NCBI GenBank assembly: GCA_023213315.1
Contig: JAKCPI010000879.1
Coordinates: forward strand, 1-64,000
Length of the DNA: 64,000 nucleotides
Direction of reading: 5' to 3'
DNA from: Euborellia annulipes
Taxonomy: Eukaryota; Arthropoda; Insecta; Dermaptera; Anisolabididae
Each line of letters opens with the position of its first letter. The stretch's first letter is position 1. The notes under the pieces were generated by a model that was not told the origin of the DNA, did no database searches, and was given only the letters and a program-made list of their open reading frames with translations. A program made the position numbers and the translations under genes. This document shows positions 1,214 to 58,840 of the stretch, in pieces.

Positions 1214-2284
1214 TTATTCCCCCTCAACTTCATTAAAATAGAAAACCTCATTTACACCGAAATCCCCAAAGCCGTTTATAAATTTATTTATTACCTCGAC
1301 TATCATGAATACAAATTTTTAATCAACTTATTGAAAATATCTATTTTATTTGTTTCAATGTTATTTTAATAAATAATTCAATTATAATATTTATTATATA
1401 TCCATGAATTTTTCGCCTAATGACGTTGATAAATTATTTAATTTTTTTTTTTTTTTATAATTGTCATAGTATTTATTTTTTATTTTTCAAGTGTTTATCA
1501 CCGAATAATTCTATTCACTTCATGTCACGTTCACTGAAAATCCATTTGTTTGGCTTATTATTTTTATTCATATGAGGACAAAAAGATAGAGGGCGATAAT
1601 GGGCGGAAAACCTGCATTCTCACCCTTCTCCCTACTTTCAATTGTTTTTAGGGATGACTGCTGACGTCATCAGATAGAGGTCATATGCCAGTCCATTGAG
1701 TTTAAAGATTTATTAAATAAAAAAAATCTCATTTATGTGATTTCATCTTTTTAATTCAATTATTTTTCACTGGACTACATTATGAACCTTTTAGTATTGC
1801 AGCTTAGATTATATTTCTAGAATATATCGCAAGGTGTTGATGATTATTATTTGAATATATTCTAATATCCAAGTTGAAACTTTGTTCGAGGGTTGGCCAA
1901 TTTCCTCTTGCAAGACGAAGCTAACTTCATCTTCAACTAACGCATTTCATTTTTTTTTTATTTAGTTAAAAAAATAATTGTTGTTGGTCTTTATTTAAAA
2001 TTTTTCGATCGATATCTCGAGTCTCACAATCAATGCTTTGAAATTTTACAATGGGAAGTTTTTCACAAATTTTAAGTTGTGAGCCAATAGTACTACTAAA
2101 AGATTTTGGGGCAGTCGTTTTGCCATCCAAAGCTTGAAACAACTGCCTGAACGGTAATGCAAAAGGCAATACCCCACTGAAGTGGTATTTTAATTTCTCC
2201 GGTCATCGCCCGAATGCGCAGCCGTCATCCGTACTTGACGCTATAATACGTCATTTTTATATCCATTTCACTACCTCAAATTGA
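1214..2284. other. AT-rich non-coding stretch
   Basis: Poly-T and poly-A runs with no long open frame. I recognise no gene or repeat here. Confidence 0.4.
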
Positions 2285-3055
2285 AAAAAATACATTTTCA
2301 ATAATTCATTGTCTTTTTATAACTCTAATATAATTGATTTTCACTATAGCTGTTAAATATTCAGCTGTTTGGATACATTAAAAAAATCATAAAATTCTGT
2401 GATTTTTGTTAAATTCTAAATTTCAACTGTAATGCGCTAGCTGGAGGTTAGATATAACTTTTTTCTTTGTTGCATTTTAATTACCTATCATAGAGGCAAG
2501 TTTTTTCAGTATAGCGTGAAGAAAAAAAGAATTTTTTCTCAGCCCACCCTAATAGATTTGTTGTAATGAAAAATTTGAACCGGACAAAGGTGGTCACGGG
2601 TCTATAGTTAAAGGTTTCGGTCAAACTTGGCCATCAATTTAAGACAGGTGAGTAGATGAAAATACTGCAAAAATCTTGTATTCTAACATTTAATCGTCCT
2701 GAGGAAGGTCGTGACATGCGACCGAAACGTCGACGATTAATAATTAAATAAGTTTTTTATTTAATTTCCTTGGCTGCAAAGTCTCCTATACCCAATAATT
2801 ATTAGGGTTGGCTGAAAAAAATTTCTTTTTTTTTCTTCATGCTATAGTGAAAAAAACTTGCCTCTATGATAGATAATTAAAATCCAACAAAGAAAAAAAG
2901 TTATACCTAACCTCCAGCTAGCGCATTACACTTGAAATTTCACAAAAATCACAGGATTTTATGAATTGTTGGATAGTGGACTGTTGTAGTAAAAATCATT
3001 TATATTAGAGTTATAAAAAGGTAATAAATTATTTAAAATGATGTATTTTTTAAAT
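2285..3055. mobile_element. Long inverted-repeat element with a hammerhead insert in its centre
   Basis: Positions 2285-2556 and 2803-3055 are imperfect inverted repeats of about 250 bp. Shared blocks include GCGCTAGCTGGAGGTTAG in one arm and its complement in the other. The 246-bp centre holds a well-formed hammerhead motif (2691-2739, +). It also holds a degraded antisense one near 2608-2635, where GGTTTCGGTCAAACTTGGCC keeps the stem II complementarity. No coding sequence. It may be a TIR element that received a hammerhead insertion. Confidence 0.6.
2691..2739 (+). ncRNA. Hammerhead-ribozyme-like motif, best-formed single copy
   Basis: Stem I: TAATCGTC (2691-2698) pairs perfectly with GACGATTA (2732-2739). 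The core CTGAGGA (2699-2705) fits CUGANGA. One extra A is followed by stem II, GGTCG (2707-2711) with CGACC (2719-2723). Then come GAAA (2724-2727) and CGTC (2728-2731). The self-complementary ACGT replaces stem III, as in hammerheads that cleave as dimers. Cleavage would fall after C2731. Such small stem-III-less hammerheads are known from Penelope-like elements. Activity is inferred only. Confidence 0.75.
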
Positions 3056-5690
3056 TTAAGATAGGGCAAAGGCCTTCAATATATTGATAGTTTATCACTT
3101 TTCTGTGGTAACCGGCACATGCAGCATGTAGTTTCTTCAAATTTACTACTCATGTAGTTTTTTTTATTTTTTTTAGAGCCTTATTGTTAATAGAACAAGA
3201 CTTTTTTTGAATTAAACAACATGCCTAAATATGCTCTGAATTTATGATCGAAGCGTCGCATTAAATTAGAAAAAAAAAATCTCCATTTTTGCTATTTTCT
3301 TCTCCAACTACTTGACATTTTACCTTAATACGTTATTATATTAAGCCGAGTTCACAATGAACGCACACATGGTGTGAAACAAATTTGCATTCAAATGCGT
3401 AATTCTCCCGTTGGGCGCAGCATTTGACAATAACAGTTATTGATTGATATTAATTCACTTATTTCGAATTTTGACTTAAGCATACCCCTAGAGATTAGAG
3501 CAGCCTCTCTCTATTCATGAAAGGACATCGAATAAACAAACAACGTTTGATGGAATCCTTACAAACCAAACGAATTTAAATTCTTGTATGTTATAAATTA
3601 AATTCCTTTTTTTTTTTTTTTTTACAACAAACCATTGGAAATCCTATTACGTGAATTGACATGATCCAAATGAAATGAAATTTAATTTCAATTAACATAT
3701 TCGTTTTTATTTAAAAATATGAAATTGCAAAGCTTTTTTTTTTTGTAATGACAAATCGTCATGTTTTATTATTGATTTTACATTTAGTGTTCGCGCATCT
3801 CTTTTTCCGTTTTCTTTTTCCAATAAAAAAAAGTCAATTTACTTATTAATGAAATTTTCGCTTTAAATCTAATCATTAATTTTTGTTTCTAAAAACTCAT
3901 TTTTATCTTTAATTAAATTTCAAGAGTTTTAACCTTGATTATTTAATTATAATCTGGAATGTCAAGCAGATATAGGAAGCACTCTGATCCACCTTGAATT
4001 ATAGTAGTAATAGGGGTTGATTATAAAAACTTTTTCAGATTCAGATTCTACTGACAAGTTTCTGGTTACCATAATTAGATTTGGCCAAAAGGACTTAGGA
4101 CATTAATGCCCATTAAGGACTCTCTTTTTACCTTTCCCACAAAGACACATAGGCAATGTTGGATAATTTTTTACCGCAACCGGGACTTTATTCCGAGTTG
4201 TGTTACAATTCTAGATCCGTCCTCCACAGTTTATCCGATTAGCCATGAACTTTAATCTTCATAGATAAGGGTAGTCCACCCGCCGCGAAAGCGTGGAGGT
4301 CCTGGTTCGACTCCAATTTTGCCCAATCTTAAGCACAATCTCACAAACTTGCTATTTTAAACGATATATTGACTGGCTAATGAACAGTCTATTTGAGCAT
4401 TGATTGAAAAAATCCATCCTTTTCAAACAAGGCTCTACCTAGTTGATGAGGGAGGAGGGGTAGTGATTTATCTATTTTGAGACAACGTTTAGACAATTAT
4501 TTTGGCTGTAATTTGGTCAAATTTAGCGCCTAGAGACTGTTTTCGGTCTCCGGGTTTTAGTATATTCCAAAATTCACAAAGATATTATCCAATTGAGGAC
4601 TTGGCTCTAAAGGCTTACTATTCACTTATTGTCTGTACAATGTCACGGTAACATTTGTTGTAAATAATAGAGGATGAATAAGGGCTTTCCTTTATCATTG
4701 TATTTTTTTTTTTTTTTTTTTTTTTTTATTTCTCTCTGGAAATTATTCCATTGCTATCAGATTGTCTCTTTTTACGTCTGAACAAAATTTTAATTAAACT
4801 AATAAAACATCGCAACAATAGGTCTAAAAGCAAAAAATGAAATAATCCGATTGTAATCAATGAGCTAAGTCAGAGTGGAGAGTTCAATTCATCGCTGGTT
4901 TGCCGATGCATAATTTAATAGAAGTCTATTTCTGTGTGTGGAGAGTGAACTAAAAGCAAAAGGGCTGCAATGAATAATGCAGGGGAAACCAGAACGACCT
5001 GCCAGGAAAGCGAAAACGACTTAGACCAGTCCTCGAGCAATGAGCAATTCATTCCAACAACTGAATCTCGCTTTTTACTTTTTCTCTCTTTATACACTTT
5101 ATAATATCTAGTTAGCTCTTCTAACAAATGGATTTTCAATTCCTCTTATTTAATTACAAGAACAAATTTAACCTTACCTCAGCTTTGACCAAGAAAAAAG
5201 AAAAAGGTTTTTGCAATAGAAGACATTTTTTAAATTCAGTTCAAAAGAACTCTCTATTAAAGCCTGTTCGACCACCTACCTTGTTGATAAGATGCTTTTT
5301 GCTATTTCTGGAACCATTTCTTAATACCAAACTTTCCTGCTTCTGAAATGAACAGACACACTTGTTTAATCAGACAAATCGAGTAGGCAGGGAAGTGGCT
5401 AAGATAAGCTGCGGAATACAGATCCTAAGTTTCAACACAACTCGGGTTCGAATCCAGCTCCGACTTGGTTAACCTGTCGAGAGATGTGGGCCTGGGAAGG
5501 AGCACTACCTCATGAAATCCATCCACTCAATGAGCCAAACACGGAGACAAGTCGGAACTTTAAGGGGGATACCTCATCTCGTAATTCTTCTTCAAAATAT
5601 TACTCAACACCCCATGGAGGCTATATAATTCTTTTTCTGTCTATGTCTGCTCAATCTAGCGGGTTGTCGTGAAGACTGAGTTTTCTATAG
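3056..5690. other. Mostly unrecognised AT-rich DNA; two tRNA-promoter-like spots
   Basis: No convincing gene. GGTTCGACTCC near 4303 and GGTTCGAATCC near 5447 match the pol III B box, and each has weak A-box-like sequence upstream. They could be remnants of tRNA-derived SINEs. Neither folds into a clear tRNA. Confidence 0.35.
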
Positions 5691-6140: not shown

Positions 6141-7032
6141 TTCGGATGCAGTTAGCTGTTAGGGAATTATTACACAAACATTTTATCAGCAAACACCGGG
6201 ATTCTATTCTTTTGAATGTACAGCTAGCATCTATTGAAGAATCGTTGTATTTGCCTGTTTTATTCTTGTTATCTTCTATAAAAATTAAAAAAAATTTAAA
6301 TGAATTTAACAATTTTATTATTAGTTCTATATTCATCTTATTTGTATTCATCTCTTTGTTTCGCACTTGGACTGACTTCTCTCTCTTCTCTCATAAAGTT
6401 AATTTCTAACTCAAAGCCAACTCGGTCTCTCTTTTAAAAATAAAATATGCATGTTTCTTTTCGTTTCATTCTTTAGCGTGAATAATAATAATCTAGTTAA
6501 AAAAATAAATAAATATTTCTCAATTTATTTACTTCTACTTTTCAAGGTTATTTTTCAAATAATTAAACGAAATAAAGGATCCGTCCTTTGCTCTTTTTTT
6601 AGAGGTATTTATACCTAAAGAACCCACTTTAAACATAAAATTTTCAACAAAAGGGCCATGGAGACTAAGGGAGGGGATACATGCCTTGAACTATTATTTA
6701 CTCTTCGTTCCCCCTAGAATATTTATCTTTTCGGCTTTTCTCTACTGTCTCGATTATTTTAAAATCAAAATTATGAAGATTTTATAAAAGAGCAGCTATG
6801 ATTAATTGTTTTATTGATTAAGCTAAGACCTGGACTGATGTTTGGGTCACGTATGAGACTATCTTCAGAGCTATCAAACAACTGGTTCAAAGAATACATC
6901 AATAATTTAGTTTCTTTTTTTTCTTACCATTCATTACGATTACAGAAATTATATAAAATAAAGAAAAAAATAAATCTTTTGTTAGTAAATAATAAAAATG
7001 AATGAACATTAAAAGGTAACTAATTAATACAT
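6141..7032. other. AT-rich non-coding stretch
   Basis: No gene, RNA or repeat recognised. Short open frames here have no family features. Confidence 0.4.
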
Positions 7033-7120
7033 TATTCTTTGTATCAGCTTGTTTAATAGTTCTGAAGATGCTCACATACATGACCGAAACGTACTCCTGT
7101 CCTGAGTTTATTCAATAAAC
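7033..7120 (+). ncRNA. Degenerate hammerhead-like motif, first of two related copies
   Basis: CTGAAGA at 7062-7068, a weak stem II (G.TCA with TGA.C), GAAA at 7086-7089 and CGTA. An AATAAA follows at about 7112. The surrounding sequence recurs at 7510-7600 (CATTATTCTTTGTATC in both), where GAAA has decayed to GAATTT. These are two diverged direct copies of one repeat. Confidence 0.35.
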
Positions 7121-9465: not shown

Positions 9466-9873
9466 TTAGACACTTTTCTACTGAGAGCGTCGATTTGTAA
9501 TCGCCAAACCTAAAAAATAAATAGGAACTCGATTATCGCACTGAAGTCCGGTTAATCGACCTTCATTCCTTAATCTGTTATAAAGAAATATAGACTATTA
9601 TAATTTTATTTTGCCTTTTCGGCATCTTAGGCAATATTTAAACCAGATAACTCGAGTGTCATATTTTCAACAATGGTCCGATCGATATCTGTTGGATTCG
9701 TTTAGGGACTTTTGTTATATCATCTAATTAGATTAGAGTCATTTAGTCTCGTTAAGTCTTCATTTAACTATTATTATTTCTATTAATTTCAAAATAGAAA
9801 TCCACATTGGCATAATAATCAAAAATTTTATTTGACCTGAGATATACCCCTATTCCGAAATATATATCATAAT
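9466..9873. other. No gene seen
   Basis: Non-coding AT-rich DNA with no recognised element. Confidence 0.4.
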
Positions 9874-9999
9874 TGATTTGAATGAGGGTATGTTCAGCCA
9901 AATAAAAGCTTTATATGCTTATCGATCCCGGAGACGTTTCGAGATCGATAAGCATATAAAGGCTTTTTTATTTGGCTGACTTGCCCTCATTCAAATCAA
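9874..9999. repeat. Compact palindrome centred on GACGTTTCGA
   Basis: Arms 9874-9927 and 9943-9999 are inverted copies, sharing TTTGAATGAGGG and TATGCTTATCGATC or their complements. The loop contains GACGTTTC, the complement of the hammerhead GAAACGTC, but no CTGA core remains. It is probably a collapsed hammerhead palindrome. Confidence 0.65.
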
Positions 10000-10201
10000 C
10001 TATATTCAGAGCCACCAAATTCCCATTCATTTATATCATAAACCAAGTTTGAAGTTGGGGCAAAAGAAAAAAACTGTAGATTACCAAAACAAAATATAAA
10101 ATCGTCTCTATATTCAAAAATAAAATTCTTATTATTATAGACAGGAGAAGGAGCAGGTGCAGCCAAAAAACAAAAGCCTCGGATTTAATACAATTTAATG
10201 A

Positions 10202-10236
10202 GACGTTTCGGGTGAATTTCATCTACCCATCTTGCT
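10202..10236 (-). ncRNA. Degenerate hammerhead-like motif, antisense arm
   Basis: On the minus strand: perfect stem II GGGT/ACCC, then GAAACGTC (plus-strand GACGTTTC 10202-10209). The CTGA core has decayed (AGCAAGA), so it is predicted inactive. Confidence 0.45.
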
Positions 10237-10275
10237 CTATTGACCAACTCCGGGACTTTTAACAATTTTGAAGGA

Positions 10276-10310
10276 CTGAAGATGGGTAGATGAAATTCAC
10301 TCGAAACGTC
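10276..10310 (+). ncRNA. Hammerhead-ribozyme-like motif
   Basis: CTGAAGA (10276-10282), an extra T, stem II GGGT with ACTC (one wobble), GAAA (10303-10306) and CGTC (10307-10310). Stem I is weak. It lies in the right arm of the palindrome. Confidence 0.55.
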
Positions 10311-10495
10311 TCATTAAATTATATTAAATCGGAGGCTTTTGTTTTTTGGCTGCACCTGCTCCATCTCCTGTTTATAGAAAAACAGCCACCGACTTCATTG
10401 AATTCTTATTATTATCATTAAAGAAATCCCTGAAATTGAGAAAAAAGCAGCCAGGTAGGAAGTCTCTATTATTAAATCAAACTCCTTTATTACAA

Positions 10496-10529
10496 AACGT
10501 TTCGGGCAATTTTATTGTGCCATCTTCAG
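10496..10529 (-). ncRNA. Hammerhead-ribozyme-like motif
   Basis: Minus strand: CTGAAGA (complement of 10523-10529), T, stem II GGCA with TGCC plus a mismatched C, GAAA, CGTT. The core matches CUGANGA and ACGT is present. Its mirror copy is at 12304. Confidence 0.6.
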
Positions 10530-10612
10530 TTGTATAAAATTATTTACATTGTTAATAAACTAAATATTCGATTTAAGAAATTTTTCTTTTTAAATATTCA
10601 ACATTGTTTTTT

Positions 10613-11952
10613 ACTTTCTCTTACCTATGTATATATGTAATATATATATAGAGAGAAAGTATTGGATTCATGTCAAAAATTCGATGTCGAGATTTTGATG
10701 GATCTTCACGTTTTGAGGTCCCCTGAATCCAAAAAAGTGGTTTTCGCGACATGGTCTGTCTGTGGGTGGGTGTGTGTTCAATTTTAAGCATGAAGGAATT
10801 GAGCTACGAGGTTGAAATTTTATATTTAAGTTAAACACCCCCCGGGACCGGAAAAATAAGCTTTTAACCAAAATCGGCCAATGAGTACTAGTACTTTACT
10901 GATGTACTTTTTCAGTTTTTTTCGATTTTCTCAAAATTTGCTCCAACGATTTTTTTTTTTAATTCAAAAATCAATTATTTTTTAGATGCTCTTTAAAATG
11001 TATATTCTCATTTTGCAATTGAAATCTTCTGAAGACCACTTTACTCTTGTATTTCATATGGAAGATAGGAGAAATGGTTGCCATGGTAACAAAATATAAA
11101 TATTTTTCCATACTTATAAATTTTACTTTCTCTTACCTATGTATATATGTAATATATATATAGAGAGAAAGTATTGGATTCATGTCAAAAATTCGATGTC
11201 GAGATTTTGATGGATCTTCACGTTTTGAGGTCCCCTGAATCCAAAAAAGTTGTTTTCGCGACATGGTCTGTCTGTGTGTGGGTGGGTGGGTGGGTGGGTG
11301 TGTGTGTGTGTGTGTGTTCAATTTTAAGCATGAAGGAATTGAGCTACGAGGTTGAAATTTTATATTTTAGTTAAACACCCCCGGGACCGGAAAAATAAGC
11401 TTTTAATCAAAATCGGCCAAAGAGTACTAGTACTTTACTGATGTACTTTTTCAGTTTTTTTCGATTTTCTCAAAATTTGCTCCAACGATTTTTTTTAAAA
11501 TTCAAAAATCAATTATTTTTTAGATGCTCTTTCAAATGTATATTCTCATTTTGCGATTGAAATCTTCTGAACACCACTTTACTCTTGTATTTCATAGGGA
11601 AGATAGGAGAAATGGTTGCCATGGTAACAAAATATAAATATTTTCCCATACTTATAAATTTTACATCTGAATTCATATGTTCCGTACTGTCATGTCGGGA
11701 ACTAAATATATGTCGACACAAAAAATCTGGTGTGACAAGCACAGAACACAACTTTCGATTACCGAAGGTAAGAGAAAGTTGTGTGCTGTGCGCCAGTCAC
11801 ACCAGATTTTTACATCTGAATTCAAATGTTCCGTACTGTCGGGAACTAAATACATGTCGACACAAAAAATCTGGTGTGACTGGCGCACAGCATACAACTT
11901 TCTCTTACCTTCGGTAATCGAAAGTTGTGTGCTGTGCGCCAGTCACACCAGA
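10613..11952 (+). mobile_element. Family A element split by a second family A element
   Basis: The outer copy runs 10613-11124 and resumes at 11812-11952. Across the gap the body reads CTTATAAATTTT then ACATCTGAATTC, exactly as in uninterrupted copies. The right terminal hairpin (from about 11865) ends at GTCACACCAGA. This copy lies in the left arm of the 10.4-12.4 kb palindrome. Confidence 0.85.
11125..11806 (+). mobile_element. Family A element inserted inside another family A copy
   Basis: A complete 682-bp copy from ACTTTCTCTTACC to CACACCAGA, entered between CTTATAAATTTT and ACATCTGAATTC of the host copy. Four T precede it and five T follow it where the empty site has four, so it either duplicated a T4-5 target or carries terminal T. 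A (GGGT)n/(GT)n microsatellite at 11277-11316 occupies the usual CTGT-rich position. This insertion fixes both ends of the family. Confidence 0.9.
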
Positions 11953-12303
11953 TTTTTAAAATACACTTGTTAATAATACGTCTGTACATAAGCCATTCAT
12001 TTACAATAAATGAATACAAATATATTTGAAAATAGAGTAAAGAAGCGAATTTCAAAATGTATAAATGTTAGAAAATTGTTTTTTTTTTATTAATTTCGAA
12101 ATTCGCTTCTTTACAAGATCCATCATATTTTCAAATATATATGCATTGCTTTATTCCTAGGCTATAGTAAATGACTTATTAAAAACTCTATTCTTTAAAA
12201 ACTGTAAGTCTGAATAATGTTATTTTTTAAATTTTTTTTTTTTTTAATCGAATACTTAGTTAATTAACGACATTATAAATAATTTGTTCTTTAGCTTATA
12301 CAA

Positions 12304-12337
12304 CTGAAAATGGCACAATAAAATTGGTCGAAACGTT
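12304..12337 (+). ncRNA. Degenerate hammerhead-like motif
   Basis: CTGAAAA (G8 changed to A), T, stem II GGCA with TGGT, GAAA (12330-12333), CGTT. It is the mirror of the 10496 copy. Loss of the invariant G predicts no activity. Confidence 0.5.
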
Positions 12338-12440
12338 TTATAATATATTATGAGTTTGATTTAACAATAGACGCTTCAAACCTGGCTGCTTTACTCTTCA
12401 TTTCAGAGATCCCTTTTCTTCATTTATCCTAGAAAAACCT

Positions 12441-15114: not shown

Positions 15115-15575
15115 TCTGGTGTGACTGGTCGCACAGCACACAACTTTCTCTTACCTTCTGTAATCAAAAGTTGTGTTCTGTGCGACCAGTCACACCAGAT
15201 TTTTTGTGTCGAGATATATTTAGTTTCCGCCGATATACGTATTAGAATTCAAGATGTAAAATCTATAATCATGGGAAAAAAATTATATTTTGTTACCAGG
15301 GCAACCATTTCTCCTATCTTTCATAGGAAGTACAGTAAAATGTGCTTCAAAAGATGTCAAGAGCAAAATGAGAATATACCATACATTTTAAAGAGCACTA
15401 AAAAATAATTGATTTATGAATTTTTAACAAAATCGTTGGGATGAATTTTGAGAAAATAGAAAAAAAACTGAAAAAGTACATCAGTAAAGTACTAGTACTT
15501 TTTGGCCGATTTTGTTTAAAAGCTTCGTATCACGTCCCGTGTACCTAATTTAAATATAAAATTTCAACCTCCTAT
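15115..15575 (-). mobile_element. Family A element, truncated
   Basis: Starts with the TCTGGTGTGAC hairpin (15115-15201). The body continues on the minus strand through ACTTTACTGATGTACTTTTT to ATATTTAAATTAGG, then stops where a SINE-related repeat begins. The ACTTTCTCTTACC end is missing here. Confidence 0.8.
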
Positions 15576-19215: not shown

Positions 19216-19586
19216 AAATATAGACCTAATATATACCGTATAAAATATAACATAATTCAATTCCAAACATTTATAATTGCTGTACTTATATGATGTTCTA
19301 TCTTTGAAGTGGTCAAAGGTACAACACCAGTACATTCTGTGATTTTGTGAAAGAGGGGGGGTTATAATGCCAGCTTCAAAATTTTAAGAGAAGTTATACG
19401 ATAAGTAGTAAATAACAACCTGTGAGTTTCACCTTTCAAATTGGTAAGATTCAAAGTTCATAACACAAAAACAAACGTATAAACTACTTACTTTTTAGTA
19501 GCGAAAATAGATAAAGTTATGTAGTAGAAGGATAATAAAAAGAGAGAGCAGCTAGTTTTCTTTTATTTTATTAAACCCTCATTGCT

Positions 19587-19618
19587 GACATTTCGGTCCT
19601 GTTTAGGGCCATCTTCAG
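19587..19618 (-). ncRNA. Hammerhead-ribozyme-like motif
   Basis: Minus strand: CTGAAGA, T, stem II GGCCCT with AGGACC (one mismatch), GAAA, TGTC. The usual ACGT is changed to ATGT, weakening the dimer stem. Mirror of 21436. Confidence 0.6.
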
Positions 19619-19699
19619 AACATTAGGGTTGTCAATATAAATTTTAATTTCCATATTTCACCTATATTTAACATAGTTGGTCGATTTTATAACAATATA

Positions 19700-21172
19700 C
19701 CGGGTGGGGAATAGTGCGTGGCGGAGGTGAGGCTTATTGACTGGACATTTTTAAAATTTGTTGATCGCACGTGGGGGCCTTTAAGGGCTACAAATTAAAA
19801 ATATTTTTGTTCAATTGCACTTTATACAGGGGCCTATAAGTTATGTTTTTTAAATGGAACGCCCTATATTGCATTATTGTTCTGCGGCCGATAGTATGGG
19901 TTATGTCATGCAATGTACTGAAACAAATCGTTGGGTTTAGTGAAAAACTGCTGTCTGGAAAAAAGAATACTCAGAACAATACAGGGGATGTTGTGAGGTA
20001 TAATGAATGGCCTAATGAGGAGATGGGGAACCCGAATTATTCTTATGTTGGGAGTTAATATGAAAATTTTCAATCATGGATAACTTTATTTTTTCAAATG
20101 GAACAGTACTTTTTTCATAGGACGTAATTAATTATCTTTCAGCTGATATAGGTTATCATATCTATCTTTGGTAGTTTTCTTTTATTCCAAAATATCTGAC
20201 GAAAAAAAAAATATTTATTATAGATAAAATATTAAAAAAAAAAATCCAAACGCAAAACAAAATTGTAATAAATGGACAAATTATGCTAAATATTCGAAAA
20301 TGTCTTTTAATTTCTTAAAATCATTTATTTGAACCTCTCAAAGAAGTCCCGCTTGCTCAAATTCGGGTTATGATTTGTCAACAAGATGGCGCACCTCCTA
20401 ACCTGAACATAACCCTAATTTCTTTTTCGAGAAGTTCAAATAAATGATTTTAAAGGAAATTTAAAGACATTTTCGATTAGCATAATTTGTCCATTTATTA
20501 CAATTTTGTTTTGCGTTTGGATTTTCTTTTTTTTCAATTATTTTGTCTATAATAAATATTTTTTTTTTTTCGTTATCAGATATTTTGGAATAAAAAGAAA
20601 ACTACCAAAGATAGATATAGACAACCTTATATCAGCTGAAAGATAATTGAATTTCACGTCCCATGGCATAAAAAAAAAAGTAGCATGTTCCATTTGAAAA
20701 AATAAAGTTATCCATGATTGAAATTTTCCAAATTGGCATGGCCATATCTCCCAACATAAGAATAATTCCGGGTTCCCCATCTGGCCTGCATTAGTCCATT
20801 TCATGTTTAGTAACCTCACAAAAGAACAGTTCCCTAAGTTTTATGGTTCGCGAGATATTCAATTTTTTCCAGACAGCAGTTTTTTTCACTAAAGCCCGAT
20901 TTGCGCCTAAACGGTTTGTTTAAGAATACATTGCATGACATAAACTCATACTAAAATTGGCCGCAGAATCCAAATATGCAATAATATATAGGGCGTTCCA
21001 TTTAAAAAAACATAACTTTGATATGGGTCACCCTGTATAAAAAGTGCAATTGGAACAAAAATATTTTTAATTTGTAGCCCTAAAGGCCCCATATTATGTG
21101 CGATCAACAAATTTTAAAAATGTCCGTTAATAAGCCCACAATCTTCCGTTCACGCACTATTGGCCCACCCGG
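19700..21172. mobile_element. Foldback TA-target element (Tc1/mariner-like) nested in one arm
   Basis: Ends CCGGGTGG and CCACCCGG, flanked by TA at 19698-19699 and 21173-21174. The opposite arm of the host palindrome reads AACAATATATATTATGATAAG without the insert, so it is the empty site and shows a TA duplication. The 1473-bp insert is itself palindromic almost throughout (arms meet near 20385), with TTAAATGGAACGCCCTATAT in both arms. It has no transposase ORF. A TA target fits Tc1/mariner-like MITEs. Confidence 0.8.
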
Positions 21173-21435
21173 TATATTATGATAAGTAGGTGAGATATTT
21201 TATAATGGTAAAGTCTGCGAGTAAAATTCTGTGACTGTTCTATCGAGTTTAGTTTATAAAGCTATGAGTTTATAAACTAAACTCGATAGAACAGTCACAG
21301 AATTTTACTCACAGACTTTACCATTATAAAATATCTCACCTACTTATCATAATATATATTGTTATAAAATCGACCAACTATGTTAAATATAGGTGAAATA
21401 TGGAAATTAAAATTTATATTGACAACCCTAATGCT

Positions 21436-21467
21436 CTGAAGATGGCCCTAAACAGGACCGAAACGTC
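21436..21467 (+). ncRNA. Hammerhead-ribozyme-like motif
   Basis: CTGAAGA (21436-21442), T, stem II GGCCCT/AGGACC (one mismatch), GAAA (21460-21463), CGTC (21464-21467). Stem I pairs TGCT with AGCA next to the core, then CCCT with AGGG further out. AATAAA follows at about 21482. Confidence 0.7.
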
Positions 21468-21663
21468 AGCAATGAGGGTTTAATAAAATAAAAGAAAACT
21501 AGCTGCTCTCTCTTTTTATTATCCTTCTACTACATCAACTACACAGCTATAAAAAAACCTCCAAGATAAAGTTATTTATTTTCTAAATAAACCAGCTTTT
21601 ATCCTCAAAAGTCCGACAGTGTATTTCTTTCGTGGCAGGTCTGTAAACTAGTACCTATAGCAT

Positions 21664-24835: not shown

Positions 24836-26467
24836 ATGGCAACAATATCTCCAACAATGACACAACAACAAATCCAAACAAAAATCATTGAATTTATCAA
24901 TTCTGATTTAAAATTCCATACTGAAATTACATTTAATACATTTCAAGGCAATCTTTTTCAAAAATTACCAATCGATGTAATTGATGAATTGTTGAACAAT
25001 TTGCTTTTGCATTTCGGTGAACAAAGAAATACAGAAATGACGTTACGAGTTCTTAATTTAATGATCTCTAATTGTACAAATCGATTGTTTTTAGCGCCAT
25101 GTCAATTTCTATATAATAACGATTTAATCAATGCAATTTTAACGTTAATGAAATATAAACAAGTGAATTTAAAACATTTGGAATTAATATTTAATAATAA
25201 TGAAAATTATTTTTATAATTTTATAAAAATGTCTCCAAATTTAGAAAAATTAACAATCAAATGTAATTCAATTAATGATAAATGTATAAAAATGATTTTA
25301 CGTTCATGTCCTAAATTAAAAGAATTAACGTTAATTATTTTGAGTTCATTGCAATTAAATATTAATTCATGGCCAATACATGAAAATCTTGAAATTTTAC
25401 GTTTTAATGTTTATTCAATTGATATTTTTAAGATCCAATCACCAAAAATTAATTTCAAAGGAAAATTTCCCAATTTACAATTAATTGATACAAATCAGAA
25501 ATTTTTAAAATTATTTTTAAAAAATGAAATTTCACTAGAAATAAAAAAATTATTATTAAAAAAATGGAATTTAAAAACAGTTGAACAACTTTTTGATATT
25601 CAACCACAAATTGATTCAATATGTCTAAATGATATCAAGGAAAACGAAGCCGAAGACATTGTTGAATTCGTGACGTCACATTTCCAACAAGTGAAACAAT
25701 TGACGTGTCATAATGCCTTCACAATCAATTTCCCCAACGATTTTGGATCACAATTAACATCACTGACATTGTATCAAGCAGATTTAAATGATTTATTAGA
25801 ACAATGCCCGAATTTGGAATATTTAGATCTTCAAAAATACAAATTTGATGAGAATTATATAATAAAACATGAGAAATTGCGTTATCTTTCTCTTTCTGAA
25901 TGTGATATAACGTTAATTAAATGTCTTAGAAGTGTCAAAACAATTGAAATATTTAAAATTGGCTCGTTCACGTCATATTCACGTGCAAATCTTCATAATC
26001 TAATTGAAATTATGCAAAATGTAAAAATTTTCCATGTATATTTTGATTGTGCTTTTACATTAGAATGTATTCAACAAATAATTACAAAGTGTCCTAAGTT
26101 AAAAGAAATTGTTCTACCAATAGAAAATTATAATTTTGAGGTTGATGCGGTTTTAGAATTTATTAAAATTAAAAATATCAATGTAAAATGTATGAATAAT
26201 GAAGTGTATGGCGAATTGTATGATAGATGGCCGTCATCAGAGCCGACGATGACGCATTTAAGTCCAGGTGCCACTTGCAGTAGCCAACAAGCCATGACAA
26301 ACAAATCTGATTATTTTGGTGAAATTTTTTTTTTAATTTATGTACTCACTTATATTGTTCTATTTTTTATTTACCCTGACATTTTTGAACACTTTATAAA
26401 TATTTCTTTATTTCTATTTACTTGTATTTCTTTTGTAATTATTATGTCATGCCGAGTCTGTTTATAA
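24836..26467 (+). CDS. F-box-like leucine-rich-repeat protein with C-terminal membrane segments
   Basis: A 543-codon uninterrupted frame, the only long host-like ORF here. Residues about 38-58 (LFQKLPIDVIDELLNNLL) resemble an F-box. Irregular leucine-rich repeats of the F-box/RNI type follow, for example NLKHLELIF (111-119), SPNLEKLTI (133-141), CPKLKELTL (158-166), CPNLEYLDL (324-332), EKLRYLSL (346-353) and CPKLKEIVL (419-427). Residues 462-492 are more polar and less AT-rich. Two hydrophobic segments (about 496-512 and 520-537) end the protein, unusual for an F-box protein. AT-rich codon use matches the window. LRR/F-box proteins usually select substrates for SCF ubiquitin ligases; that role and the membrane location are inferences. 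The absence of introns could mean an expanded single-exon family or a retrocopy. Confidence 0.8.
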   Translation: MATISPTMTQQQIQTKIIEFINSDLKFHTEITFNTFQGNLFQKLPIDVIDELLNNLLLHFGEQRNTEMTLRVLNLMISNCTNRLFLAPCQFLYNNDLINAILTLMKYKQVNLKHLELIFNNNENYFYNFIKMSPNLEKLTIKCNSINDKCIKMILRSCPKLKELTLIILSSLQLNINSWPIHENLEILRFNVYSIDIFKIQSPKINFKGKFPNLQLIDTNQKFLKLFLKNEISLEIKKLLLKKWNLKTVEQLFDIQPQIDSICLNDIKENEAEDIVEFVTSHFQQVKQLTCHNAFTINFPNDFGSQLTSLTLYQADLNDLLEQCPNLEYLDLQKYKFDENYIIKHEKLRYLSLSECDITLIKCLRSVKTIEIFKIGSFTSYSRANLHNLIEIMQNVKIFHVYFDCAFTLECIQQIITKCPKLKEIVLPIENYNFEVDAVLEFIKIKNINVKCMNNEVYGELYDRWPSSEPTMTHLSPGATCSSQQAMTNKSDYFGEIFFLIYVLTYIVLFFIYPDIFEHFINISLFLFTCISFVIIMSCRVCL

Positions 26468-39150: not shown

Positions 39151-40070
39151 ATTTTCAATAAAAACCAACAAAATTAATTCTGTATAAAACGGGCTTGAGT
39201 TTTCCCAGTTATTCTAAAGTTAATTTTTTTTTTTTTTTCATTTTTACAACGCTTTTATTAACTTGCTTTCCTGTTTTTTCCGACAAATCTGCAAATCGAA
39301 AATACGACCACCTCTACGTAACCTAGAGCTTTGAAAATTTATACATATATGTAACTCCCGTGACAATGCAATATTTTAAATGTCTCATCTTTGTATCTCA
39401 ATTAATTTCAAAATGGCGGCCTGCTAATCACATTTCTATTGTTTAGTCCGTCAAAGTTGCCGATCGAAATTACGACCACTTTTAGTTAATCTAAAGCAGT
39501 GGTTCCCAACCTTTTTTGACCCATCGCCCCTTTTTGGAGGTTGACTAACACCTACGGCCCCCCTTTACATTTTCATTGTATGCCTAATTTTAATTTGAAG
39601 TAAAGTGTAAATAATAAAGCAGTTTTATTATTTTAAACAATTTTATTACCGTAGGCCTACATACAGGGCCGCAGACAGACTTGGCAGGCCCCGGAGCTAC
39701 TTAGTAATATGACCCCCCCAAAAAAAAAAAAATAAAAAAACTTAGTTTTTTTTTAATATGTAAAAGGCTATTGTGGCCTTCATGCCAACACTTTTTTTAC
39801 ACAACTTTTGAAATAGTTATACATAGCTTACAATATTTATTTAAATAAAGTTATATAAAATTTTTTCAAAATTTCCTAAACAAAGAGTTACAATAATTTA
39901 TCGAGGACAGAGGATTTCCGGGGAATCTGGGGGTATGGAAAATTTTTTGAAAATTTGCCACTGAAACCTGCGTTTTTAGCTATCCTGAGTCGTGAAAAAG
40001 ATCAAACTTGATTTTAGCTTAAAGGGCCCGGGCCTCCTGAGGAAAAAAAATTCAAGAAAATGATTTTTTT

Positions 40071-40737
40071 ACTTTCTCTTACCTATGTATATATGTAATA
40101 TATATATAGAGAGAAAGTATTGGATTCATGTCAAAAATTCGATGTCGAGATTTTGATGGATCTTCACGTTTTGAGGTCCCCTGAATCCAAAAAAGTGGTT
40201 TTCGCGACATGGTCTGTCGTGTGTGTGTGTGGGTGGGTGTGTGTGTGTGTGTTCAATTTTAAGCATGAAGGAATTGAGCTACGAGGTTGAAATTTTATAT
40301 TTAAGTTAAACATCTCCCGGGACCGGAAAAATAAGCTTTTAATCAAAATCGGCCAAAGAGTACTAGTACTTTACTGATGCACTTTTTCAGTTTTTTTCGA
40401 TTTTCTCAAAATTTGCTCCAACGATTTTTTTTAAAATTCAAAAATCAATTATTTTTTAGATGCTCTTTAAAATGTATATTCTCATTTTGCGATTGAAATC
40501 TTCTGAAGACCACTTTACTCTTGTATTTCATAGGAAAGGATAGGAAAAATGGTTGCCATGGTAACAAAATATAAATATTTTCCCACACTTATAAATTTTA
40601 CATCTGAATTCAAATGTTCCGTACTGTCGGGAACTAAATATATGTCGACACAAAAATCTGGTGTGACAAGCACAGAACACATCTTTCGATTACCGAAGGT
40701 AAGAGAAAGTTGTATGCTGTGCGCCAGTCACACCAGA
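40071..40737 (+). mobile_element. Family A element, complete, nested in a hAT-type element
   Basis: A 667-bp copy from ACTTTCTCTTACC to GTCACACCAGA, preceded by seven T and followed by eight T. It carries (GT)n at about 40219-40251 in the variable site and the complete terminal hairpin. Confidence 0.9.
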
Positions 40738-40773
40738 TTTTTTTAATTGAAATTTAAGATTTGAGCTAAAAGT

Positions 40774-40806
40774 GACGTTTCAATTCTAGATTGGAATTAT
40801 CTTCAG
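40774..40806 (-). ncRNA. Hammerhead-ribozyme-like motif
   Basis: Minus strand: CTGAAGA (complement of 40800-40806), T, perfect stem II AATTC/GAATT, GAAA, CGTC. Stem I AGT/ACT with further partial pairing. Unpaired single copy. Confidence 0.65.
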
Positions 40807-44307: not shown

Positions 44308-46005
44308 ATGACCTCCTGAATCCAAATATGACCTCCGTTTTCCCCCAGCACGTACCGTTTTCGGGGGGAGAGCCCCCTACTTATTTCCACCCCTTTTCGT
44401 TAATCTTAGGGCCATGAATCAAATTTGGAGGGATGAAAAGGAACATTTTAGCCTTAATATTTCTTCTGAAGGTCTATAGAAGTGAAAAGTTCAAAAAACA
44501 TGAACATTTGAATCCAAGAGGGGATGTGGGGGAGGATTTTGTCCCTTAAAATACAAAAAAATCATTAAAAATGATCGATTTTTTCTGTTTTTTCGCAGTC
44601 TTTCCACTGTTTTTCTACATATTCCAGCTAACAGACCTTCCTCAACCTTCTTTAAACATCTCTCAACAAAAAAAAGTATATAGGATAAAGCGGGTGGGGT
44701 GTGAGAGATTCCGAAGCCCTCGCAAGGAGATGTAAGATTTACATCTCCAACGCTGCACAGTTGGTCAAATTCGCGAATATTGAAGAACAAAAAAGAATGT
44801 GTATATATAATTTGAAATTTGCAAAGATCATCAACCAAAAAAAAAAGATAATTATAATCGCATATTTGCGAATTCGACAGACTGTGCAGCGTGGAGCTGT
44901 TAAGATTCCAAATCCTGAGGGCTTCGGAATCGCTCACGCTTCACCCGCTTTATCCTATATATTTTATATTTGTTGAGGGATGTTTAAAGAAGGGTGAGGG
45001 AGGTCTGTTAGCTGGAATATGTAGAAAAACACTGAAAAAACTGCGAAAAAAACAGAAAAAATCTGGTGTGACTGGCGCACAGCACACAACTTTCTCTTAC
45101 CTTCGGTAATCGAAAGTTGTGTTCTGTGCTTGTCACACCAGATTTTTTGTGTCGACCTGTATTTAGTTTCCGACAGTAGGGTTCAATTGAATTCAAGATG
45201 TAAAATTTATAAGTATGGCAAAATGTTTATATTTTGTTACCATGGCAACCATTTCTCCTATCTTTTCTATGGAGAACAAGAGTAAAGTGGTCTTCAGAAG
45301 ATTTCAATCACAAAATGAGAATATACATTTTAAAGAGCAACTAAAAAATAATTGATTTTTGAATTAAAAAAAAAATCGTTGGAGCAAATTTAGAGAAAAT
45401 CGAAAAAAAAACTGAAAAAGTGCATCAGTAAAGTACTAGTACTTTTTGGTCGATTTGGTTCAAAAGCTTCGTGTCACGTCCCATGGGGGTGCCGAACTTA
45501 AATATAAAATTTCAACTTCCTAGCTCTTTTCGTTCTTGAGATATTTTGTTCACACACACACACACACACAGACACACAGACAGACAGACCATGTCGCGAA
45601 AACCACTTTTTTGGATTCAGGGGGCCTCAAAACGTGAAGATCCATCAAAATCTCGACATCGAATTTTTGACATGAATCCAATACTTTCTCTCTATATATA
45701 TATTACATATATACATAGGTAAGAGAAAGTAAAAATAGATCATTTTTATTGATTTTTTTGCATTTTAAGGGACAAAATCCTCCCCCACATCCCCCCTTGC
45801 ATCCAAATGTTCATGTTTTTGAACTTTTCACCTCTCTAGACCTTCTGAAGAAATATTAAGGCTAAAATATTCTTTTTCATCTCTTCAAATTTAATTCATG
45901 GCCCTATAATTAACGAAAAGGGGTGGAAATAAGTAGGGGGCTCCCCCCCCGAAAACGGTACGTGGTGGGGGAAAACGGAGGTCATATTTGGATTCAGGAG
46001 ATCAT
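44308..46005. mobile_element. Foldback element with long inverted arms, hosting family A
   Basis: The ends GACCTCCTGAATCCAAATAT and their complement are inverted. The similarity continues about 280 bp inward (CACGTACCGTTTTCGGGG, GGATTTTGTCCCTTAAAAT). An inner palindrome near 44700-44960 contains GATTCCGAAGCCCTCGCAAG and its near-complement. A second copy is at 52361-53110. Family A sits at 45062-45730. Confidence 0.75.
45062..45730 (-). mobile_element. Family A element, complete, with known empty site
   Basis: A 669-bp copy from TCTGGTGTGAC to GGTAAGAGAAAGT, inserted between CAGAAAAAA and AAAAATAGATCATTTTT. The sister element at 52.8 kb reads CAGAAAAAATCGATTATTTT without it. Hence insertion into an A-run, with five or six A on each side. 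Confidence 0.9.
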
Positions 46006-54536: not shown

Positions 54537-54773
54537 TTGTATTTATTTTATTCTAAATAAGGGATCGGGCGAGATGTTGTTCAGTTTAGATTTATTGATG
54601 ACTGACGAGCTCTTGACCAAAAATGGTGGGTGCAACTTGTGCTTTTAGACCCTCCCAAGGATAACCAGTTGCATGCATTTCTGCGTAACTAAATGCGATC
54701 TCTTAAATGAAGGAGACAACCGTCCGGCGGGATACAAATAACGCAATTCCCTTTCAAAATGTTTCGAATTTTT

Positions 54774-55413
54774 ACTTTCTCTTACCTCTATTTATATAGA
54801 GAGAGAAAGTATTGGTTTCATGTCAAAAATTCGATGTCGAGATTTTGATGGATATACACGTTTTGAGGTCCCCTGAATCCAAAAAAGTGGTTTTCGCGAC
54901 ATGGTCTGTCTTGTCTGTCTGTGAACAAAATATCTCAAGAACGAAAAGAGCTAGGAAGTTGAAATTTTATATTTATGTTAGGCACCCCCATGGGACGTGA
55001 CAAGAAGCTTTTGAACAAAATCGGACCAAAAGTACTAGTACTTTACTGATGCACTTTTTCGGTTTTTTTTCGATTTTCTCAAAATTCGCTCCAACGATTT
55101 TTTTTTTTAATTCAAAAATCAATTATTTTTTGGATTCTCTATAAAATGTATATTCTCATTTTGTCATTGAAATCTTGTGAAGACCACTTTACTCTTGTAC
55201 TCCATAGAAAAGACAGGAGAAATGGTTGCCATGGTTACAAAATATAAAGATTTTGCCATACTTATAAACGGTACATCTTGAAAATCGAATGTACCGTACT
55301 GTCGGAAACTAATTACATGTCGACACAAAAAATCTGGCGTGACAAGCACAGAACACAACTTTCGATTACCGAAGGTAAGAGAAAGTTGTGTGCTGTGCGC
55401 CAGTCACACCAGA
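54774..55413 (+). mobile_element. Family A element, complete
   Basis: A 640-bp copy from ACTTTCTCTTACC to GTCACACCAGA after a T-run and before T6. Landmarks include TGTCTGTCTGTGAACAAAAT, ACTAGTACTTTACTGATGCA and the full hairpin with GGTAAGAGAAAGT. Confidence 0.9.
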
Positions 55414-56862
55414 TTTTTTAAAATATGATTATTACTAAAATAAAAAAAGAAAATAGATCACATAAATATTGGCCTAGTAATCTTAATAATAAATCACAGT
55501 AGCCTTTAGAAAAAATTGGGAGAGGGATCTAATATTCTATTTACTATTAAGCCTAAAAGTAAAATCGTGTAGTTTTAGAGTGTTATCAAGAATAAATTCA
55601 TTTTCTCCTCTTGATACTGGTATGTTAATTCCTTGACCGAATTAAGACTAGAGCGGCAGTTTTTAATATTCATAATTCAATTAATCATTTATCTTACAAA
55701 CCTTTTAAATCCAGAGTTGAAGTGTCAGTGCCGGCTTAGCTAGTGTCGGCATAAAATAAAATCATTCATAAAATAGAGCATTTTTACTTTCTCTTACCTA
55801 TATTTATGTTATCATATTTTTCTACTTTCCCTTTTTTTTTAAACCCTTTTCGGCTACAGAGGCCATTAGGGGTTATTACTTTATTTAAAATAAATTAAAT
55901 ACATTAGTACTGATGGCTACCGGGGGGCGTTCCACACGTCCGCACGCTGATTGATCGGGGTCACCAATCCTCGATTCATAATAAAATTCTAACTTTACAT
56001 TCGAATTTATTGTCTCCTTGGTCATAAATGATTTTCCGATTAGTGCTGCTACCTAGGGGATAAATCATGAACTTGTTTTAAAAAGTTCAAAGAATATTAT
56101 AAACCGTATATTAAAAAAAAAAAAAAAAAATATTTATTTATTACGCCTAATTAAAATTATTAAATTAAATATAAATTTTAATTTAATATTTTAATTACAT
56201 TCTTTTTGTTTCATTATCAAAATAAATCAAATAATTTTCAAACATTTTTATTTATTCTATGTTTTATATTCTTTGAAGATTTCTTTTCAACTCGCCTGCT
56301 TCTCGAATGTTTGACGTTTAGTTTGCTCTTATTTTGTGTTCTTATTTCTGTGTTTATATTTGTGAATTTCATAATCAACTTTATTCGTGGTGAGTAATTT
56401 AATTAGTTTTGATTTAATATTCATTAAATATATTTCAATTAGAAATATCGAAACTTATTAATTTTCTCAAATCAAATGGTATTGAAATGTGTTCAATACA
56501 TCATTGATTTAAAACAAGTTTTTTTTTTATTTAGAGATATATTAAATGTTTTATTGAATATTAGATATATAATTATTTTCAATTAGTATTTAGTAAATTC
56601 TCTATAAAACGTATCAAAAGTGAAATAAATAATTCAGATATTTTTATCCTTATATACTGCTGGCATCTAGCGGAAGAATGATGAACTAACTCATTTTTAA
56701 ATTTGATTCCTTTTATTGTTTGTTTACAAATTGTTAACAATTAAAGGAAGTGAGTATTATTCCAAGGAAAATTATAAATTATAACAAGTGACGGTTTGCA
56801 TCAACAATTACAATCCTACCACAGAAGCATTTCGAACCTCGATCATTAAATCATCAACTTTT
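55414..56862. other. No gene seen; family A scrap and unknown repeat
   Basis: ACTTTCTCTTACC scrap near 55787. 55905-55965 matches the unclassified repeat at 41.9 kb. Otherwise AT-rich. Confidence 0.4.
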
Positions 56863-56972
56863 ATTCTTTTCCTTTAGTATTGTAGTTGTGGCTGTTTGAG
56901 TTGTATCAAGAAAAGGTGGGGAAGAGCAGAGACTGGCAGCCAAATTTTTTTCTTTAATTATTTTATTGGGTC

Positions 56973-57004
56973 GACGTTTCGGTCTCGATAGAGGCCAACT
57001 TCAG
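56973..57004 (-). ncRNA. Hammerhead-ribozyme-like motif
   Basis: Minus strand: stem I TGGGCC/GACCCA (one mismatch), CTGAAGT then T, stem II GGCCTC/GAGACC (one mismatch), GAAA, CGTC. Core A9 changed to T unless the linker shifts. Confidence 0.6.
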
Positions 57005-57096
57005 GGCCCAATAAGTGTCAAGGAAATATATATAATTTGCATTAGGCAGCTATGTGTAATGTAAATTATATATATTTCCTTGGCACTTATTGGGCC

Positions 57097-57128
57097 CTGA
57101 AGATGACCTCTATTGAGACCGAAACGTC
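57097..57128 (+). ncRNA. Hammerhead-ribozyme-like motif
   Basis: CTGAAGA (57097-57103), T, stem II GACCTC/GAGACC (imperfect), GAAA (57121-57124), CGTC (57125-57128), AATAAA at about 57133. Confidence 0.65.
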
Positions 57129-57207
57129 GACACAATAAAATATTTAAAGAAAAATTTTGGCTGAAAGTCTCTGCCCTTCAATCTTTCCTTGATATTCTTT
57201 TCATTTA

Positions 57208-57496: not shown

Positions 57497-58023
57497 TGTG
57501 TCGACATATATTTAGTTTTCAAGAGTAGGGTACAATTGAATTCAAGATGTAAATTTTTTTTTTTTTTTTAACATTCACACTTTTTTCCCATTCACACTCA
57601 CATTCACACACAAACAAACAGTCTTCTCGGCAACTTAGGCCATTTAAGACTTTTACGATATCCGTTATAGAGATTAATATACATATATGGGGTCCAGGCA
57701 TTCTTATTTAAGCCATTTGGTATTCAAATGGCTTAAATAAAATCATCGGACTGCCTGGGGTCCGAACCCGCGACGTTTGGTATACGAGGTTAGCACGCTA
57801 ACCTCTGCACCAAGCCCCGAGGGCAATGTAAAATTTATAAATATGGGAAAATATTTATATTTTGTTACCATGGCAACCATTTTTTCTATCTTTCCTATGA
57901 AATACAAGAGTAAAGTGTTCTTCAGAAGCAATGACAAAATGAGAATATACATTTGAACGAGCATCTAAAAAATAATTGATTTTTGAATTAAAAAAAAAAT
58001 CGGAGCGAATTTAGAGAAAATCG

Positions 58024-58409: not shown

Positions 58410-58620
58410 ATCCACTGAAGGAGAGAAGTTACTTTTAAGACAACACATCCAATCCCTAAACTCCAGGCTCCACTCTCGAGCACATCAGTCACTTGTGGCG
58501 CTCACTGTACACACTGTAGAGCAAAGAGACTCTCGGACAAATCAAAAGCATTCTGGATAGGTGATAAAGAAGAAAATTCGCAGCTAGTTAATATTTCATT
58601 ATTTTTATTCCCATTATGTT

Positions 58621-58652
58621 GACGTTTCGGTCCCGGTCGGGACCACCCTCAG
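58621..58652 (-). ncRNA. Hammerhead-ribozyme-like motif
   Basis: Minus strand: CTGAGGG (A9 changed), T, six-pair stem II GGTCCC/GGGACC, GAAA, CGTC, short stem I TGTT/AACA. Confidence 0.65.
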
Positions 58653-58697
58653 AACAAATGGATTATATAATTTATACATATTTGACACCCATTTGTT

Positions 58698-58729
58698 CTG
58701 AGGATGGTCCCGACCGGGACCGAAACGTC
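58698..58729 (+). ncRNA. Hammerhead-ribozyme-like motif, intact core
   Basis: CTGAGGA (58698-58704), T, six-pair stem II GGTCCC/GGGACC (58706-58721), GAAA (58722-58725), CGTC (58726-58729). Stem I TGTT/AACA. AATAAA at about 58741. Cleavage would be expected after C58729. Confidence 0.75.
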
Positions 58730-58840
58730 AACATAATGGGAATAAAAATAATGAAATATTAACTAGCTGCGAATTTTCTTCTTTCTCACCTATCCTGATT
58801 GAACTACCAGCTATAAGCCTTACGTATCAAAAGCATTCTG

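Follow-up and report, generated by a model that had tools for sequence, protein, structure and literature searches.

The window, by which we mean the whole 64,000-nucleotide stretch of Euborellia annulipes DNA analyzed here, carries at 58541-58840 a unit in which an insert of 270 bp (58556-58825) is bounded by perfect 15-bp direct repeats. The repeat, ATCAAAAGCATTCTG, is found at 58541-58555 and again at 58826-58840, identical in 15 of 15 positions, and the insert comprises two head-to-head arms, 96% complementary and each with a hammerhead motif, along with a tail on one side. This confirms the first-pass annotation of a two-arm insert with a one-sided tail between perfect direct repeats, and the identity of the flanking repeats supports its view that the insert arrived with a duplication of the target. 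The inverted-repeat finder gave 113 nt at 96%, overrunning a few bases into the flanks, and we set the arms at the 106-nt spans 58556-58661 and 58689-58794. The tail, 58795-58825, measures 31 nt, or 30 if the common base of the junction is assigned to the arm. The parts of the unit, with the start sites as we propose them below, are as follows.

58541-58555, plus strand: target-site duplication, left copy, ATCAAAAGCATTCTG
58556-58661, minus strand: tailless arm, with its sense on the minus strand, ending at the putative inner start site
58621-58652, minus strand: hammerhead motif of the tailless arm, with core CTGAGGG, in which G replaces the last A
58662-58688, unstranded: centre, 27 nt
58689-58794, plus strand: tailed arm as far as the putative inner start site
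58698-58729, plus strand: hammerhead motif of the tailed arm, intact core
58764-58769, plus strand: TAGCTG, 5' strand of the body-tail stem
58795-58825, plus strand: tail, 30/31 nt, ending at the putative outer start site
58808-58813, plus strand: CAGCTA, 3' strand of the body-tail stem, within the tail
58826-58840, plus strand: target-site duplication, right copy, ATCAAAAGCATTCTG

The joint between exon 1 and exon 2 of the tailed arm, as defined below, falls at 58695/58696. The centre appears in this unit to be mostly the head of the tailed arm, since elsewhere the same sequence stands upstream of the arm, as exon 1. A transcript of the whole unit is predicted to fold as one hairpin (-183.7 kcal/mol), and hence the hammerhead within the inserted pair is probably a passenger.

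The motif in each arm takes the form CTGANGA-stem-GAAACGTC, with the final A of CTGANGA replaced by G in the left arm. It is of the minimal type I, GAAACGTC standing where a true helix III would be; the relevant passages of two reviews likewise describe the hammerheads of Penelope elements as minimal and lacking helix III (PMC7761336, PMC6155905). The hammerhead motifs of the window are not products of chance: GAAACGTC occurs exactly 13 times, against a mean of 1.10 in shuffles, and relaxed hammerhead matches number 15, against a shuffle mean of 1.43 and a maximum of 5, with the match at 57887 looking spurious and that at 40774 weak. The pairing of stem I is copy-specific across 15 hammerhead copies, being equalled in 0/2000 re-pairings, and stem II exceeds shuffled sequence in strength (0/500). 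Rfam returned no match at gathering level in the whole window, and a relaxed search of the unit brought up other models, mostly hairpins, but no hammerhead family; hence, our hammerhead calls rest on the core pattern and the pairing tests. For the solo motifs at 42.5, 48.0 and 52.0 kb the window offers no clear mate, and one solo motif sits inside an unrelated palindrome (2263-3072). Scans of viral and prokaryotic contigs yielded 39 loci, which by eye are phage hammerheads of another type or chance matches, none with the present anatomy.

We observed 206 inverted pairs of at least 60 nt at any distance in the window. Among the 39 pairs no more than 2.5 kb apart, some of which overlap one another, seven bear hammerheads in their arms, chosen by our list of motif positions. 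A match of at least 10 nt abuts an arm in five of these seven, as against 0/32 pairs without hammerheads, one of which shows a 16-nt match, though not directly beside an arm. In these five, namely pair A (the unit at 58541-58840) and pairs B to E below, one arm is directly adjoined by a match of 10-15 nt, from which the other arm is 28-32 nt away; random placements in the window showed such one-tailed geometry, with a match of at least 10 nt, in 122/60000 cases.

9863-10041, unstranded: pair E, arms within 9873-9999, tail on the right, 32 nt, target-site duplication TATATCATAA, joined inside the hammerhead
10124-10415, unstranded: pair C, arms within 10141-10371, tail on the right, 29 nt, target-site duplication AATTCTTATTATTAT
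19509-21575, unstranded: pair B, arms 19519-19699 and 21355-21535, tail on the right, 28 nt, target-site duplication AGATAAAGTTAT
56862-57202, unstranded: pair D, arms within 56904-57194, tail on the left, 32 nt, target-site duplication TATTCTTTTC

The remaining two hammerhead-bearing pairs, G (10420-12416) and H (6810-7119), have no target-site duplication, and their arms are only 75-78% identical, compared with 88-99% in pairs A to E. Pairs A and B are distantly related, at 72% over 103 nt, and D matches A over a mere 59 nt at 71%, while C and E match none of the other pairs of this set at an E-value of 1e-3; thus, the one-tailed anatomy recurs across families. A mariner-like element (19696-21176), with terminal inverted repeat CCGGGTGGG and TA at either end and itself an imperfect palindrome of 1.5 kb, is nested in what was formerly a 538-bp palindrome of pair B. 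The element is thus a later, nested insertion and not foreign DNA captured by pair B.

A further feature common to the five pairs is a short stem that joins body and tail. The body motif TRGCTG is complemented inside the tail in 5/5 window tails, by 6 bp in four of them and 5 bp in E, the letters being TAGCTG/CAGCTA in A and B, and TGGCTG with CAGCCA or AGCCA in C, D and E. None of 20000 sets of shuffled tails reached five-of-five pairing, and the pattern of hammerhead end followed by TRGCTG and CAGCYA occurs five times in the window (A, B, C, D and the solo motif at 48.0 kb) and not once in 100 shuffles. The inner end of the tailless arm is located in the loop of this stem. For the Poseidon element of Anolis carolinensis, PAc, reverse transcription is described as beginning in an AC-rich stem loop, and the tail as the stretch between its two start sites (Frangieh et al., PMC11167929).

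The unit at 58541-58840 is one of many genomic insertions of its family, which we term family A. When the unit was used as query against the 903-Mb genome, 104 matches were obtained from the 40 scored of 1727 candidates; the 39 places fetched beyond the window comprise 37 head-to-head pairs and 2 single copies. A second query of one arm plus tail, chosen to reduce the bias that a palindromic query brings, gave 34 pairs and 6 copies that are single within the fetched DNA among the best 40 of 1996 candidates; one of the six, L108, is at a contig end and has an upstream flank in common with L113. Both queries together define 58 family-A loci with 52 head-to-head pairs, 42 of them independent once loci with a common flank are merged (looser flank matching adds only matches of 29-43 nt). 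Both queries include the tail and thus favour tailed copies while not disfavouring two-tailed pairs, and since only the top-scoring 40 candidates out of 1727 and 40 out of 1996 were used, the sample leans to young, tail-bearing copies; within it, exactly one arm is tailed by homology in 41/42 independent pairs. The last, L080, has by eye one tail shortened by internal loss and a 12-bp duplication, and no pair with zero or two tails was seen among the 42.

Direct repeats and tail both recur in these copies, as the first-pass annotation had proposed checking. It had also named flanking repeats absent from other copies as the outcome that would count against it; target-site duplications of at least 10 nt, spanning 10-15 bp and mostly 12-13, accompany 30/42 independent pairs (abutting the tailless arm in 20/28 sites of the first set and 10/14 further pairs) and are missing by the criterion used in 12/42, L080 among them. 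With swapped flanks, abutting matches of at least 8 nt arose in 146/3884 cases. The duplications of 20 sites are 85% A+T, versus 68% for the window. Short duplications (missing in 12/42), AT-rich targets and variable 5' truncation are all found in family A.

The monomer of the family is about 290 nt long and non-coding, the longest stop-to-stop frame of the L084 monomer being 37 codons, in support of the earlier description of the unit as coding-free. Mapped on a 291-nt reference, the first set, with 28 independent sites, has 3' ends that fall into two clusters some 30 nt from each other, and scattered 5' ends. No correlation was seen between the 5' ends of the two arms of a pair (rho 0.10, p 0.62, n=28; without L075 rho 0.08, p 0.71, n=27). 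We left L075 out of the comparisons of head length, as its 109-nt head difference is an alignment break, the tailed head continuing across two deletions almost as far as the common head. At the centre of this pair both arms seem by eye to lack the same stretch of exon 1, some 45-50 nt, as though an RNA with that internal deletion had been the template of both. Paired 5' ends differ by at least 20 nt in 12/27 sites and by at least 50 nt in 8/27, and in 6/27 the tailless arm is longer at the head by 18-96 nt even though it has no tail; hence, simple copying of either arm does not yield the other. The longer head is clear in L076 (80 nt) and L083 (96 nt), and less so in the four sites with 18-37 nt, where A+T-rich heads align loosely and later deletion is possible. 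A common head, (A)CTCCTGATTTG, is reached by an arm in 8/28 sites (5 tailed, 3 tailless) and forms a discrete end point, located 150 nt upstream of the arm. Although the 291-nt reference itself stops there, arms at the common head join other sequence directly near that point, and single copies start there too. The core of the predicted ribozyme, as read from the sequence, is intact in 26/28 tailed and 17/28 tailless arms of these sites.

Single full-length copies of the family exist, namely L113 and, with an intron, L097. In the latter and in other copies, a 188-nt block with GT..AG ends and a pyrimidine-rich 3' part is placed exactly at the continuous joint of the short form. This block fits an intron that would have been spliced out of the shorter copies, and replaces the idea that the extra block between head and arm is a tandem copy. 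In the unspliced copy L097:2669-3142, the intron end CATTAG could by eye substitute for CATTTG of exon 1 in stem I (CATTA with TAATG), and with this exchange both splice forms may fold the hammerhead. As the heads and centres differ from insertion to insertion and single full-length copies exist, the template appears to be not the palindrome but a single RNA about 290 nt in length, or the version of it that keeps the intron. The term foldback element in the first-pass annotation hence seems misplaced, for the palindrome would not be the unit that is copied.

The splice state could be typed on both arms in 22/42 independent pairs, some typings resting on 8 letters beside the joint and the remaining 20/42 having a truncated arm: 15 are without the intron, 7 with it and none is mixed. 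The probability of no mixed pair under independent draws is 3.7e-6, and 0/200000 label permutations achieved it. Mates also resemble each other more than permuted mates do (0.970 versus 0.941; 0/2000), while the mate is the best or tied-best match for only 25/84 arms, with a median rank of 9 of 83. Since splice states are never mixed and mates share variants, the two arms of a pair would tend to have a single RNA, or a single source, as their common origin. The splice state and the one-tail rule together are most simply, though not conclusively, explained by one RNA with two starts; uniform splice state and mate likeness also fit two RNAs of one source locus, or an intron-less subfamily.

We propose that family A is a non-autonomous, non-coding retroelement moved in trans by machinery of the Penelope-like type, with a reverse transcriptase (RT) and a GIY-YIG endonuclease, through two-ended priming from an inner and an outer start, and put the probability of this reading at roughly 0.7. 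An RNA of about 290 nt, or a form retaining the 188-nt intron, would begin at (A)CTCCTGATTTG and bear the small hammerhead mid-way, followed on its 3' side by the stem TRGCTG/CAGCYA with the inner RT start in its loop; the outer start would be about 31 nt beyond the inner one, past the stem. Staggered cuts 10-15 nt apart would expose two target 3' ends, each of which would prime one cDNA, one at the inner start and the other at the outer. Each cDNA would extend toward the 5' end of the RNA and stop independently, and the two heads would then be joined, leaving two head-to-head arms, exactly one of them tailed, within a target duplication. Both cDNAs would usually be made off one RNA molecule, which in turn would explain why each start is used once per insertion. 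Two-ended target-primed reverse transcription would likewise explain the unequal fixed 3' ends, the independent 5' ends and the duplication. The enzyme of the Anolis element is reported to cut and extend both strands and to start reverse transcription at two neighbouring sites that mark the limits of the genomic tail, with no difference in start site seen between top and bottom strand (PMC11167929); hence, the use of one of each start is not predicted by that alone. A bolder proposal, which we rate as slightly more apt to fail than to hold, is that these elements can insert in the Penelope manner only in a two-ended fashion, on a single RNA with two stem-separated starts, one per target 3' end, each pair being one RNA copied twice from different starts. 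If this were true, Penelope palindromes would be a normal product and not an accident.

As to the enzyme, two short motif probes for RT and GIY-YIG produced nothing above chance level in the window, where the best match had E 0.72, and no match at E 0.5 across 20 fetched loci, most of about 6 kb, and Pfam detected no RT or GIY-YIG endonuclease in 10 window ORFs. Thus, by these short probes, an ORF combining RT and GIY-YIG, as in an autonomous Penelope-like element, was found neither in the 290-nt monomer nor in the window or the 20 loci, and so we infer the Penelope-like enzyme from the anatomy. The earlier suggestion of a Penelope-like anatomy is upheld by the inverted pseudo-LTRs (pLTRs), the tail of about 30 nt on one of them and the short duplication.

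Self-priming is a different route to a head-to-head pair, wherein one cDNA or antisense RNA folds at its head (snap-back) and is copied into the second arm. The junction palindromes of the Penelope elements of Adineta have been interpreted in this manner (PMC3846280), some pairs have small loops, such as B with 8 nt, and pairs with the longer tailed arm would fit if annealing were internal. Nevertheless, a copied arm should share the end of its template, yet the 30-nt tail is absent from one arm of the pairs seen, and the extra heads of tailless arms, clear in L076 and L083 only, also speak against such copying. We therefore regard self-priming as unlikely.

Equally relevant are the animal retrozymes, which are described as non-coding, non-autonomous elements of 170-400 nt with a type I hammerhead (PMC7229834), a description that family A fits. 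Their mobile form would be a circular RNA cleaved by the hammerhead, whereas 56/56 arms at the 28 sites run upstream beyond the cleavage site, a count that is not a rate as the search favours long arms, and pair E of the window, unlike these arms, is joined inside the hammerhead. The extension of the 56 arms past that site agrees with a published proposal, in which RNA left unprocessed serves as the main substrate in vitro. Moreover, the heads stop at the discrete common site in 8/28 cases, and direct repeats are unusual: 52/58 loci are inverted pairs, and a possible direct arrangement is seen in L114 alone, with same-strand partial copies at 426-540 and 2990-3173, 2.5 kb apart. Retrozymes are described in the same text as tandem repeats with circular RNA, as opposed to the mostly inverted pairs and templates uncut at the hammerhead of family A. 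Nothing in the insertions points to retrozyme-style circles, which the RNA may nonetheless form in general, and we deem this origin quite improbable.

A DNA foldback element or MITE, mobilized by transposase cut-and-paste at terminal inverted repeats, would share with the unit the inverted arms and target duplication, and inverted pairs are plentiful in the window. However, the ends are unequal, with one tail, in 42 independent pairs, in place of the equal terminal inverted repeats of such an element, the heads are variable between pairs, and the family includes single copies as well as forms with and without the intron; these are marks of reverse transcription. The one-tailed geometry is also seen in 0/32 of the other inverted pairs in the window, and we hold the transposon reading to be very improbable. 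Last, a hairpin RNA gene (miRNA or hpRNA precursor) kept for its double-stranded transcript is scarcely credible, for in spite of the strong predicted fold and several Rfam miRNA hairpin models below cut-off (the best being MIR821, 148.9 bits versus 249), such sub-cut-off matches are expected of any long hairpin, gathering-level matches are absent from the window, and the duplications, tail and many scattered copies are marks of insertion.

Our preferred reading, a non-autonomous element moved by Penelope-like machinery, is best compared with Pen2a of Adineta vaga. Reported for this element are inverted pLTRs arranged head-to-head, a 31-bp tail "optionally present" on one of them, duplications of 8-10 bp, intron retention and the capture of non-coding sequence between pLTRs (PMC3846280). 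Family A resembles it in the inverted repeats, one-sided tail, short duplication and intron retention, and differs in having no ORF, duplications of 10-15 bp, a tail on exactly one arm of the pairs seen instead of optionally, and some heads at one discrete site. With PAc it has in common, as far as the accessible text goes, a hammerhead upstream of the RT-initiation stem-loop, a tail equal to the interval between two start sites, AT-rich targets and an ATG in stem II of the hammerhead, 26 nt before the cut site, which is also present in the window unit, where by eye a stop follows after ten codons. Unlike family A, PAc is autonomous and tandem, and one of each start per insertion is not reported in that text (PMC11167929). 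The dispersed minimal hammerheads are likewise described as minimal type I motifs in non-coding DNA, some in Penelope pseudo-LTRs (PMC7761336); to these family A adds a non-coding vehicle.

Inverted repeats with an optional tail are hence already published for Penelope, whereas the strict one-tail rule is, tentatively, new: in the open-licence literature we did not find it, a coding-free 290-nt family or the splice-state test in print, which is a weak negative. Each genomic copy would serve as a readable record of one insertion, with two starts, two stops, one duplication and one splice state, and the asymmetry of its ends may record how a poorly understood class of mobile elements joins its copies to DNA. 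The one-tail rule and the want of mixed splice pairs make this question testable in the existing in vitro system. Family A may also be seen as a vehicle for the minimal hammerheads scattered through non-coding DNA.

Certain other features of the window merit mention. An ORF at 24836-26464, uninterrupted for 543 codons, scores above cut-off with an F-box LRR model, and had no relative at an E-value of 1e-3 among the scored candidates of the protein collection. A tRNA-derived, SINE-like sequence at 57695-57825, with A- and B-box-like motifs on the minus strand by eye and no tRNA called by ARAGORN, has repeat copies at 15562, 46465 and 46874. Finally, an abundant family of long repeats is found in both orientations, for example at 10609-11602, 40067-40755, 45057-45735 and 54759-55431, and holds a stretch of 80-110 nt with CACACCAGATTTTT that is present in many places, again in both orientations.
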